A DNA stretch of 64,000 nt, taken from contig CAADGV010000045.1 in assembly GCA_900696645.1 (NCBI GenBank), forward strand, positions 30,815 through 94,814, given 5' to 3'. The stretch is from an uncultured Chlorobiota bacterium (GTDB taxonomy: Bacteria > Bacteroidota > Ignavibacteria > UBA10030 > UBA6906). Positions 59,836 to 64,000 of the stretch are shown here, one piece after another (the stretch's first letter is position 1; the number at the start of each line of letters is the position of its first letter). Position numbers and translations under genes: made by a program. Below the pieces are notes generated by a model that saw only the letters and a list, made by a program, of their open reading frames with translations, searched no databases and was not told the origin of the DNA.

Positions 59836-61617
59836 ATGAAACTTCTTTTTTCTTACCTGAGACAGTATTGGAAACTGTCTCTCCTGGCACTTCTGCTTGC
59901 CACCATCAATCAAACCTTCTCGCTGCTTGATCCCCTCATTTTCCGGCATATCATCGATGAGTACGTCACTCGCTTTCAGGAGTATACGCGCAGCGACTTT
60001 CTCAAAGGAGTTGGTCTGTTACTTCTTGCGGCAATGGGTGTAGCGTTTGTTTCCCGTGTGGCAAAGAATTTTCAGGATTACGTCACAAACGTTATTACGC
60101 AGCGACTGGGTGCTCAAATTTATTCGGACGGCTTGCGCCATTCGCTTGAACTCCCGTATCAAGTATTTGAAGATCAGCGCAGCGGGGAAACCTTAGGCAA
60201 ATTGCAGAAAGTACGCTCCGACGTTGAGCGAATGATTAATGCATTCATCAATATTGTGTTCATGTCACTTGTCGGTGTCATCTTTGTTATGATTTATGCC
60301 TTCAGCGTGCATTGGTTGATTGCAACCGTGTACTTTTCAACGGTACCGATGCTTGCATGGCTGAGCTCAACATTGAGCAAGAAAATCAAGACTCTGCAAA
60401 AAGTCATTGTCGCTGAAACGACGGCCCTCGCCGGCTCGACCACGGAATCTCTCAGGAACATCGAATTGGTAAAGAGCTTGGGACTCGCGCAACAGGAGAT
60501 TTCACGGCTGAACAATACAACTGACAAGATTCTCAAGCTTGAACTCAAGAAAGTCCGGTATCTGCGCAGTCTCAGTTTCATTCAGGGTACATCGGTGAAT
60601 TTCTTGAGAACGACAATACTCGGCATGATGCTATTCATGATTTTCGACCAGCAGATCACATTCGGGCAGTTCTTTTCGTTGTGGATTTACTCGTTCTTCA
60701 TTTTCGGGCCGTTGCAGGAGCTCGGCAATGTCATTAACATTTATCGTGAAACCGAGGTGTCCCTGAAGAATTTCGAGGACATTCTGAATGCTCCCAAAGA
60801 GGTGAAGCCTGCGAATCCCGTACGCGTTACGGATCTCGAGACTCTTGCTTTTGACAAAGTGAGTTTCAAGCATCAATCAGCTTCCCTTCACGCGCTCAAC
60901 GATATTTCGTTCTCGGTGGAAATGGGCGAGACTGTTGCTTTTGTCGGTCCGTCCGGGTCAGGCAAATCGACACTTGTGAAGTTGCTGATCGGGTTGTACG
61001 CACCGCAGTCGGGTAGAATTCTCTACAACGGGTCGTCACGCGAGCATGTTGACCTTGAACATATGCGGGAACGGATCGGATTCGTTACGCAAGACACACA
61101 GTTGTTCTCTGGAACGATCAAGGAGAATCTCCTTTTTGTCAACCCGGGGGCAACAGATGAGGAATGTCTTGAGGTGCTGGAAATGGCCGCGTGTCAATCA
61201 TTGCTTGTTCGGGCGGACAAGGGGCTGCTCACCCTTATCGGTGAAGGTGGTGTGAAGGTATCGGGAGGGGAGAAACAACGGCTTTCCATTGCACGGGCAC
61301 TTTTGCGACGCCCGAACTTGCTGGTTTTCGATGAAGCAACATCATCGCTCGATTCTTTGACGGAGGAGGAAATCAGCGAAACTATCCGCGACGTATCGAT
61401 GCGCAAGGACCTTATTACGATTCTGATTGCCCACCGGCTTTCAACTGTAATGCATGCAGACAGAATCCATGTTCTTGAACGGGGCCACATTGTTGAAGTG
61501 GGAGATCATCAAACACTTCTCGACCTGAAGGGCCTATACTATGCCATGTGGCGGCAGCAAATCGGTGAAGGCGGGAACGGGGTGCTGCATGCAGTAAAGG
61601 ATTCGATCAAGAACTGA
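59836..61617 (+). CDS. ABC transporter, fused membrane and ATPase domains (exporter type)
   Basis: A 593-residue half transporter. Six spans in residues 10-310 (KLSLLALLLATINQTFSLL, then IVFMSLVGVIFVMIYAFSV, and others), then NBD with VGPSGSGKSTLVKLL (Walker A), VSGGEKQRLSIARAL (signature), LLVFDEATSSLD (Walker B) and IAHRLST (H loop). It works as a homo- or heterodimer exporting lipids, peptides or drugs (MsbA/MDR type); substrate unknown. The ATG at 59836 is preferred over a GTG 27 bases upstream. Its stop overlaps the convergent ATPase gene by 11 bases. Confidence 0.93.
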   Translation: MKLLFSYLRQYWKLSLLALLLATINQTFSLLDPLIFRHIIDEYVTRFQEYTRSDFLKGVGLLLLAAMGVAFVSRVAKNFQDYVTNVITQRLGAQIYSDGLRHSLELPYQVFEDQRSGETLGKLQKVRSDVERMINAFINIVFMSLVGVIFVMIYAFSVHWLIATVYFSTVPMLAWLSSTLSKKIKTLQKVIVAETTALAGSTTESLRNIELVKSLGLAQQEISRLNNTTDKILKLELKKVRYLRSLSFIQGTSVNFLRTTILGMMLFMIFDQQITFGQFFSLWIYSFFIFGPLQELGNVINIYRETEVSLKNFEDILNAPKEVKPANPVRVTDLETLAFDKVSFKHQSASLHALNDISFSVEMGETVAFVGPSGSGKSTLVKLLIGLYAPQSGRILYNGSSREHVDLEHMRERIGFVTQDTQLFSGTIKENLLFVNPGATDEECLEVLEMAACQSLLVRADKGLLTLIGEGGVKVSGGEKQRLSIARALLRRPNLLVFDEATSSLDSLTEEEISETIRDVSMRKDLITILIAHRLSTVMHADRIHVLERGHIVEVGDHQTLLDLKGLYYAMWRQQIGEGGNGVLHAVKDSIKN

Positions 61618-62386
61618 GTCGTGAATCGGCAAACAGTTGTGCGGTGTACGGATGTTTGTGAGAGGTGAAAAGTTCATTTGCCGGACCCTCATCGACAATC
61701 TTTCCTTGATTGAGGATGGCGATCCTGTCACAGAGGAACAATGCCAGTTTCACATCGTGGGTTATAAGGAGAAGAGAAAGCCGTTCTCTCTGTCGGATCG
61801 ACTGCAACAGTGAGATGATCTCTGCTTGTGTCAGCAGATCGAGTGCCGAAGTTGGCTCGTCCAGTATTAGCAGGCGTGGCTTTGCAGCGAGCGCACGGGC
61901 GATGGCAACACGTTGACGTTCACCCCCGCTTAGTTGAGATGGATATCGTGAAAGCAGATCAGGCCGCAAGCCGACGGAATCGAGGAGTAAGTTCGGTGTA
62001 ACACCATCTTGCTTGCTGCTTGCAAGTTCTTGTACCGCAATTCCCTCCAACAAACACTCCTTTATACTCATCGTCGGATCAAGCGAGGCCCCGCCTGCCT
62101 GGAACACCATCTGCAACTCAAGAGGGAAATGTCTTCGATTTTCTCTCTGAGGAAACAGGTTGACGTTCTTATATATAATCTCTCCTTTATCCGGCTGCTG
62201 TAATCCTGCTACACATCGGGCGAGAGTCGATTTTCCGGTTCCGCTTTCGCCTAATAATCCGAAACTCTCGTCTTCCTCGATGGAGAATGAGACGCTATCC
62301 AACACAAGTTTCCGGCTGATTCTGAATCCTGCCGATGAGCCAATTCTGACCGATGTGGAGAGGTGTGTCACTTCAAGCAGTGCCAT
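61607..62386 (-). CDS. ABC transporter ATP-binding protein, oligopeptide-type (OppF/DppF-like)
   Basis: A 259-residue ATPase: LGESGTGKSTLARC (Walker A), LSGGERQRVAIARAL (signature), LLILDEPTSALD (Walker B) and LLITHDVKLALFLCDRI. The YKNVNLFPQRENRRHFPLELQMVFQ Q-loop layout is that of peptide/nickel importer ATPases. ATG at 62386 is taken; a GTG 6 bases earlier is an alternative. It overlaps the end of the upstream ATPase gene, so the two form a coupled pair, but no permease or binding protein is in the window. Confidence 0.9.
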   Translation of the reverse strand: MALLEVTHLSTSVRIGSSAGFRISRKLVLDSVSFSIEEDESFGLLGESGTGKSTLARCVAGLQQPDKGEIIYKNVNLFPQRENRRHFPLELQMVFQAGGASLDPTMSIKECLLEGIAVQELASSKQDGVTPNLLLDSVGLRPDLLSRYPSQLSGGERQRVAIARALAAKPRLLILDEPTSALDLLTQAEIISLLQSIRQRERLSLLLITHDVKLALFLCDRIAILNQGKIVDEGPANELFTSHKHPYTAQLFADSRLSS

Positions 62387-63191
62387 CGTCACTCTTTCCT
62401 TTGGCCAAGTGTCGTTTGTCGCTGTTGGTCATTGTCATAGCTTCGATCAATAAGTTCGAGTAGGTATGTTGGGGAGAACTAAAGAAATCGTCGGTTGTTC
62501 TGTATTCGATGATTTGGCCGTTTCGAAGCACGGCAATGTCATCAGCATAGAGTTGTGCAAGTTCAAGGTCGTGCGTTACAAGAATCATCGCCATTTTGTG
62601 TTGAGTTTGAATCGACCTGATAAGATCAAGAAGTTTGTAACGTTGTGAAGCATCGAGAGCGCTTGTCGGTTCGTCGGCAATAAGCAAGGAAGGCTGTGGC
62701 AAAACTGCCATGGCAATCATGACGCGCTGTGCCATTCCAATGCTAAGTTTGTGCGGGTACGATCTGAGCACTTCCTGTGTCTGTTGTAGTCCCACGGCGG
62801 CCAACACGTTGTGCAGATCATCGGTTGCATGTGTTTTCCTGCTGGAAGAAAGCAACAGTTGTGTGCGAATTGAGAGAGCGGGATTCAGCGCCTGCTGGGG
62901 TTCCTGAAAGATATAGCGTATGCGGTGGCGGCATATGTCTCGCAGTATTTGATGTTTGCATGTCAGAAGCTCCTTCGAGTCAAACCTGACAATTCCATTC
63001 GTTGTAAACGAGGGTGGATTGAGTCGTGTCAACGCTTTGCAAATGGTAGTTTTTCCGCTTCCACTTTCTCCAACCAATGCAATGACCTGCCCGGGACGTA
63101 GCGAGAAACTGACATCCTCTACCACCGTTCGGGCAACACCCATCTCCGGTGTAGTTACGGTCAGATGTTCAACAGATAGAATCGCTTCCAT
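62373..63191 (-). CDS. ABC transporter ATP-binding protein, oligopeptide-type (OppD/DppD-like)
   Basis: A 272-residue ATPase: LVGESGSGKTTICKALT (Walker A), YIFQEPQQALNP (Q loop), LSIGMAQRVMIAMAV (signature with Ile-Gly in place of Gly-Gly), LLIADEPTSALDAS (Walker B) and LVTHDLELAQLYAD. Start at MEAILSVEHL, since upstream in-frame sequence lacks homology. Paired with the following ATPase. The altered signature is common in OppD-type subunits. Confidence 0.9.
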   Translation of the reverse strand: MEAILSVEHLTVTTPEMGVARTVVEDVSFSLRPGQVIALVGESGSGKTTICKALTRLNPPSFTTNGIVRFDSKELLTCKHQILRDICRHRIRYIFQEPQQALNPALSIRTQLLLSSSRKTHATDDLHNVLAAVGLQQTQEVLRSYPHKLSIGMAQRVMIAMAVLPQPSLLIADEPTSALDASQRYKLLDLIRSIQTQHKMAMILVTHDLELAQLYADDIAVLRNGQIIEYRTTDDFFSSPQHTYSNLLIEAMTMTNSDKRHLAKGKSDDGTA

Positions 63192-63344
63192 GGTCACAAA
63201 ATTAGAAGATTCCTGCCCTATTGCCACGTCCCAGAGCACAGGGATATTTTGCCAAAAACCAGTCGAATTCGACATTCTCTACGCTATACAACGTAGATAA
63301 CTGTAAGGAATCGTAAAAAAATACGTAATTTCGGCGCGAAAGTA

Positions 63345-63373
63345 TTGATAGTGATTGGTGAATATCCTATGTT
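63345..63373 (+). promoter_or_regulatory. promoter of the repeat-protein gene, sigma-70 type
   Basis: TTGATA (63345-63350) and TATGTT (63368-63373) with 17-base spacing; a leader of about 76 bases to the ATG. Confidence 0.5.
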
Positions 63374-63455
63374 TTTCTGCGAAAGGGAGCGGATTTCTAA
63401 GGCGCCGCTTAACAAACATAATTCACTGAAGTCCCACTAGTGAAGGAAGTCCCCC

Positions 63456-64000
63456 ATGAGGAAAACCAAATTCATCATGGCTATCCTTGCGGTTTTGGTT
63501 TTCGCAGGGAGCGCCATCAGCCACGAGAACGTGGAACAAGCTACACGCGTTCGAGTGGCTCAACTCGTCACACCCGTTGCCCAGGTTGTCTCACAGCCTG
63601 CAAGCGACGTAGCAGTAACACAATTCAATCAGCTTGTGCTGAGTTCCAATTCACAAATCGAAGCGCTTGGTAGCGCGTACATCTTCGGTCGTTCGGCGTC
63701 ACAGGTGGAAGCACTCGGTAGCGCGTACATCTTCGGCCGTTCAGCATCGCAGGTGGAAGCACTCGGTAGCGCGTACATCTTCGGTCGTTCGGCGTCACAG
63801 GTGGAAGCACTCGGTAGCGCGTACATCTTCGGACGTTCGGCATCGCAGGTGGAAGCACTCGGTAGCGCGTACATCTTCGGTCGTTCGGCATCGCAGGTGG
63901 AAGCACTCGGTAGCGCGTACATCTTCGGACGTTCGGCGTCACAGGTGGAAGCACTCGGTAGCGCGTACATCTTCGGACGTTCGGCGTCACAGGTGGAAGC
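63456..64000 (+). CDS. secreted tandem 16-residue repeat protein, 5' part
   Basis: The frame runs off the window end with at least 181 residues. AAGGAAG precedes the ATG. Residues 1-22 are a signal peptide (FIMAILAVLVFAGSAIS), residues 23-70 a short helical linker rich in Val, Ala and Gln. From about residue 72 the protein consists of the unit GSAYIFGRSASQVEAL, seven times here, identical in amino-acid sequence although the codons differ at third positions. Such a regular Gly/Ser/aromatic unit suggests a beta-solenoid or fibre; the family is not known to me. The C-terminus and number of units are unseen. Confidence 0.85.
   Translation, partial: MRKTKFIMAILAVLVFAGSAISHENVEQATRVRVAQLVTPVAQVVSQPASDVAVTQFNQLVLSSNSQIEALGSAYIFGRSASQVEALGSAYIFGRSASQVEALGSAYIFGRSASQVEALGSAYIFGRSASQVEALGSAYIFGRSASQVEALGSAYIFGRSASQVEALGSAYIFGRSASQVE
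63669..64000 (+). repeat. 48-bp tandem repeat array in coding sequence
   Basis: Units begin at 63669, 63717, 63765, 63813, 63861, 63909 and 63957 (the last is cut at 64000). Each begins GGTAGCGCGTACATCTTCGG with variation only at synonymous positions (GGT/GGC/GGA, TCG/TCA, GCG/GCA). Confidence 0.98.

Follow-up and report, generated by a model that had tools for sequence, protein, structure and literature searches.

What might a bacterium do with an exported protein that repeats one 16-residue unit almost exactly, while the DNA encoding it varies at silent positions? The question is raised by the 3' end of the window, the whole 64,000-nucleotide stretch of DNA that was analysed.

The array gene, its variation and its upstream region

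The ATG at 63456 starts a frame that is open through the window's end, and this is the 5' part of the array gene (63456..64000, + strand), which has a full-length orthologue in a sister species (G001). Its first 63 codons (63456..63644, +) encode a putative signal peptide, assigned by inspection, and a leader with the family motif NVE.A.RxR. Tandem units of the type S[AN]SQ[VI]EALGSAYIFGR follow (63645..64000, +), seven of them complete and the eighth partial, and the first is divergent (SNSQIEALGSAYIFGR, 63645-63692). TRF reported 7.1 copies of a 48-bp repeat (63660-64000) with a score of 591; in the register GSAYIFGRSASQVEAL this gives six whole units and 44 nt of a seventh, and in the register of the protein's end the unit reads SASQVEALGSAYIFGR. 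The copies in the window of this genome (G000) vary only at four codons of the GSAYIFGRSASQVEAL register (7, 9, 10 and 11), always at silent third positions, so that the encoded protein is identical in every copy and the seven silent-only 48-bp units of the sequence-only reading are borne out.

The window ends with its contig (C45:94814), within the array, and the gene runs on into another contig of G000 (C27), where a damaged Illumina adapter of about 57 nt (its alignment scores 84, the best of 500 shuffles 27) is followed by four units in unbroken frame, by GSAYIFGR-TAA as the end of the gene and by a terminator. The fusion of the damaged adapter to the array at the end of C27 (L007:7580-7638) is an error in the public genome assembly. 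Overlapping silent variants suggest a copy number of about 9.5 in G000. In G001 the gene is assembled through and encodes 239 aa, namely 63 leader residues and 11 units; the array is therefore no assembly artefact, a possibility that the sequence-only reading had left standing, and the artefacts are the contig break and the adapter. The third species of the genus (G002) has a leader that is 45% identical and a variant, SYYIFGR, and its contig ends within the first units. About one-third of the array-bearing contigs (L195-L214, G002:C271) end inside or just past the array, so that databases will under-report the family.

All seven distinct substitution states among the units of G000 and G001 are silent, which has a chance of about 1e-4 under neutrality, and the first six units of the two species give a dN of 0 at a dS of 0.457; the neighbouring genes, OppD left aside, give dS values of 0.36-0.57 and dN values of 0.02-0.09. 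Codon variants in the inner units of 21 arrays are silent in 114 cases vs replacing in 10, and unit identity is 99% inside a genome and 56% across genomes. Protein-level constraint together with homogenisation of the array, as had been proposed from the window, is well supported by these sequence comparisons. A neutral minisatellite, expanded in frame and homogenised while its protein has no function, would draw on the capacity of slippage and conversion to expand and homogenise tandem DNA arrays, and on the location of divergent units at the edges. However, the silent excess (114 vs 10) already contradicts this explanation, the absence of replacements at a dS of 0.457 and the class-wide conservation of position, promoter and unit consensus speak against it too, and we consider it very improbable.

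Upstream of the gene, a palindrome (CTACGCTATACAACGTAG, 63279..63296, no strand assigned) lies between oppD and the array gene, is conserved in all three species of the genus and is a candidate operator; when it was tried as a regulon marker, its exact pattern was found in G001 and G002 only at the array locus. A sigma-70-like match, TTGATA-17-TATGTT (63345..63373, +), is a candidate promoter, and GGAAGTCCCCC (63445..63455, +), which abuts the ATG and is identical in the three species, is a candidate ribosome-binding region. With the sigma-70-like match and the strong conservation of the upstream region against G001, an own promoter in G000 is likely, as was claimed before; the signal peptide claimed with it is plausible by inspection. 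The stretch 63279-63680, comprising promoter, 5' region and leader codons, is 88-100% identical to G001, mostly 95% or more, with a dS of only 0.034 in the leader codons; most of the DNA around this palindrome-to-array block is 60-90% identical between the two species, and the flanking genes have a dS of about 0.45. Folded as RNA, the hyper-conserved 5' region scored z -3.8 in G000, z -3.3 in G001 and z -2.0 in G002, and a conserved RNA element was dropped as a candidate, the structure of G002 being weaker and different; Rfam gave no match.

A class-wide family and its neighbours

The order-restricted search found the family in the window's genus only and misses it elsewhere, whereas the class-wide profile search revealed it outside the genus, with 27 of 391 genomes matched, 24 of them new and one of these new ones (G171) a weak match. 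All matches in a phylum sample fall in the Ignavibacteria-like class. The 20 array proteins examined share one plan, in which a signal-peptide-like start, a variable spacer and 4-16 copies of a species-specific 16-mer follow one another; a motif near NVE.A.RYR is usual, and the arrays mostly stop exactly at a unit end. The unit consensus is S-N-S-Q-L-[ED]-E-L-G-S-R-Y-G-[FW]-x-[RK], in which Q4, L8 and G9 do not vary among the 21 arrays compared; two genomes have T in place of the basic residue at position 16. One genome (G271, L207) has 15-residue units (SSALNELGSRYGFVR) and has lost the Gln (Q4) that is invariant elsewhere.

No family in Pfam or NCBIfam fits the array proteins consistently, and the chance matches differ from member to member. 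The ALTTAQ repeat (PF20080) scored above its cut-off for G000 and G001, but in 24-residue pieces only; other members match different, unrelated profiles in its place, and the PF20080 match is therefore probably an artefact of summing over repeats. A search for related loci in genome and viral collections gave no relatives, a plasmid search gave 33% identical low-complexity proteins as its matches, and a PDB sequence search found nothing.

The neighbourhood contains an oligopeptide permease (SBP_bac_5, OppB, OppC, OppD and OppF, adjacent). In the window, its ATPases are encoded on the - strand, the OppF type at 61607..62392 and the OppD type at 62373..63275, the latter with a true start probably near 63191. 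The order in G000 is rearranged, with the array and the gene for an exported HExxH protein between OppD and the binding protein; after OppC come a kinase, an activator, a GAF-HATPase, TPR genes and a PP2C-like protein, assigned by inspection. Most of the 20 class loci have the binding protein, OppB, OppC and a large Ser/Thr kinase-AAA-TPR protein, the kinase being present in 18, and a sigma-54 activator immediately precedes the array in 14 loci and stands one gene off in 2 more. Pfam recognises Pkinase, AAA_16 and TPR in the kinase protein and Sigma54_activat with HTH_8 in the activator. A sigma-54 site of the TGGCAY-N5-TTGC type lies 49-119 nt 5' of the array gene in 17 of 20 cases (1.5 expected from shuffles). 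In the window's genus, the array has been relocated beside oppD and is without the sigma-54 motif, and Opp, kinase and activator are retained in array-less members of the family and order.

Relatives that lack the array have one or two lipoproteins in its slot after the activator. These, too, lie behind sigma-54-type sites, and we take them to be ZU5-like; Pfam gives no match for them. G002 has both, with the array beside oppD and a lipoprotein in the activator slot. The lipoproteins end in ...PHFS[AR]YAFGR in most species and carry a short tail past the R in the window's genus. Unit and lipoprotein C-terminus may co-vary, since both proteins have SAY in G000 and G001 and both have RWG in G381, although these genomes are too few for more than a hint. 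The C-terminal pattern S.[YFW].[FWY].[RK] occurs in 17 of the 1,158 ORFs at the loci that have 130 aa or more, all of them array proteins or ZU5-like lipoproteins, and alignment of the lipoprotein and array-family profiles revealed no homology beyond this short C-terminal motif. ZU5-like domains also commonly end in HFSxYA, so that the motif common to the two types could be partly convergent. Further ZU5-like lipoproteins ending in HFSxYxFGR are encoded at dispersed places (L223-L241), several with strong sigma-54-type sites, and may belong to a candidate regulon.

An exported HExxH/propeller/barrel-like protein is encoded directly 3' of the array in 11 of the 14 loci whose sequence extends past the array and not in the other 3; the HExxH motif and a downstream Glu are conserved, and the two array-linked proteins compared are 47-50% identical to that of G000. 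In an alternative without a diffusible signal, this HExxH-propeller-barrel protein could have the array as its ligand, substrate or anchor partner, for example in a relay for envelope integrity. The tight pairing and the conserved HExxH and Glu residues are in keeping with such a partnership, as are paralogues elsewhere in the order, every one of which follows another exported repeat protein amid ECF-sigma, anti-sigma and PrsW genes; however, the partner is absent from three array loci, genomes that lack the HExxH protein have lipoproteins ending in the shared motif, and we regard this explanation as unlikely. The repeat proteins preceding those paralogues (L042-L053) are TM-anchored and have the motif GTIGA..KKYR..Q, in a degenerate repeat that differs in nearly every genus; the genes around them encode ECF sigma, anti-sigma-like and PrsW proteins. 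The idea that the array replaced these GTIGA..KKYR repeat proteins was rejected, since profile comparison gave nothing. The two arrangements are paralogous pairs rather than orthologous slots, because the HExxH protein of G000 shares 47-50% identity with the array-linked proteins vs about 33% with the GTIGA-linked ones.

Two proposed readings: released peptides or stacked coils

The reading that we prefer, at a probability of about 0.4, is that the array gene encodes the precursor of a peptide signal, RRNPP-like in its working but no member of that group. We infer cleavage, uptake, sensing and feedback as follows. The precursor would leave the cytoplasm via its signal peptide, and a protease, possibly the neighbouring HExxH protein, could cut it near the conserved basic residue to release units ending in S-x-Y-x-[FW]-x-[RK]. 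Opp may import the released unit peptides, the TPR-bearing kinase may sense them, and the sigma-54 activator could then turn on the promoter 5' of the array gene, closing the loop. The wider circuit as a whole is somewhat less probable than the precursor: in a diderm cell, a polyprotein would supply many species-specific 16-mers (or its C-terminal SxYxFxR part) for Opp import, kinase-AAA-TPR sensing and sigma-54 feedback, and lipoproteins of relatives would bear the motif once.

The precursor reading is preferred because it best unites the importer, the TPR-kinase, the sigma-54 activator with its promoter and the motif on two unrelated exported scaffolds, and because RRNPPA propeptides with repeated C-terminal pheromones offer a precedent (PMC9765709). 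Several observations argue against it. With T at position 16 in two genomes, one fixed cut site cannot fit all members; Opp, kinase and activator are also present where there is no array; the array of the window's genus stands beside oppD, where the sigma-54 motif is absent; three array loci have no adjoining HExxH gene; and AlphaFold2 prefers a rigid beta-helix.

This last point leads to a structural alternative, in which the array is a repetitive envelope or surface protein, its units stacking as coils of a parallel beta-helix or forming an amyloid-like fibre, expressed on demand via sigma-54 and kept exact because identical coils stack best. AlphaFold2 predicted a solenoid with two strands per 16-residue unit and a pLDDT of about 95 in the repeat (mean pLDDT 68-78 in four of five models), whereas a control read from the antisense frame, whose 16-residue repeats are just as perfect, scored 61 at its best and 24-32 in the rest, although that control contains prolines; the much lower score favours a real beta preference of the array. 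VIA-align ranked beta-helices highest, the autotransporter-type adhesin TibA first (Z 15.2) and tailspikes at 12-13, the alternation along the strands would let charged residues face outwards, and the unit length of 16 is fixed in nearly all members. Against this, AlphaFold2 is over-confident on perfect repeats and yields confident false beta-solenoids even for random ones (PMC11795689), and Foldseek returned nothing significant, with E-values above 2. TibA, the best structural match of the model, differs from the array protein, which lacks a barrel domain and is 15% identical, in a comparison biased by perfect repeats. Furthermore, the protein lacks a terminal cap, most arrays halting with a complete unit; the units of one member have 15 residues; and the importer, the TPR-kinase neighbourhood and the motif shared with the lipoproteins are left unexplained. 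A beta-helix thus accounts for the exact repeats but not for the neighbourhood, and we hold the envelope role to be possible, at slightly lower odds than the peptide-signal precursor.

Likeness to known systems and meaning

The sequence-only reading had likened the repeat to ice-nucleation-type beta-solenoids; a beta-solenoid is compatible with the AlphaFold2 model (pLDDT about 95, antisense control at best 61), but the ice-nucleation kind is not supported. Near-identical 16-residue tandem units and a predicted beta-solenoid are common to both, the coils of the array being predicted only. Ice nucleation proteins have TxT and SxT motifs that organise water (PMC10727499), whereas the unit SASQVEALGSAYIFGR is without threonine and so has neither; the array also lacks R-coils and a cap, has far fewer units and is unrelated in sequence (PMC10727499), and the Pfam ice-nucleation profile gave no match at E up to 1. 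Thiovarsolin is a repeat-core RiPP whose precursor holds several near-identical cores (PMC6511847). Unlike precursors of that type, the array protein has a plausible signal peptide and no modifying enzyme among its neighbours; none for RiPPs was found within about 12 kb (Opp, kinase, PP2C-like, GAF-HATPase, TPR, HExxH), and the NCBIfam thiovarsolin model scored 12.1 against a cut-off of 35.

RRNPPA propeptides carry a C-terminal pheromone in up to six copies, which is taken up by Opp and bound by TPR receptors (PMC9765709). The array locus resembles the RRNPP(A) systems (Rap, NprR, PlcR, PrgX, AimR) in having the gene of a putative exported propeptide by a TPR-bearing protein and an Opp importer, and several RRNPP(A) propeptides likewise hold up to six identical copies of the peptide at the C-terminus (PMC9765709, PMC4873490). 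In contrast to these systems, the array hosts are diderm Ignavibacteria-like bacteria, the units have 16 residues in 4-16 copies, and the TPR is on a Ser/Thr kinase-AAA protein as putative receptor, with output via a sigma-54 activator. The TPRs near the array, in the kinase-AAA-TPR protein and in a separate TPR gene, are known from their domains and not from kinship with RRNPP receptors.

Pfam and NCBIfam do not describe the array proteins consistently, yet these occur class-wide with conserved position and promoter, and under either reading the C-terminal motif common to two unrelated exported proteins offers experiments a concrete starting point. If the array is structural, its members would be a ready natural set of beta-repeats, with 4-16 copies and silent-only variation, for testing the folding of perfect repeats. 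If the units are signals, they would make up a peptide pheromone system outside Firmicutes, multi-copy and read out through a kinase and sigma-54, in which species-specific, internally identical units may serve as a specificity code.
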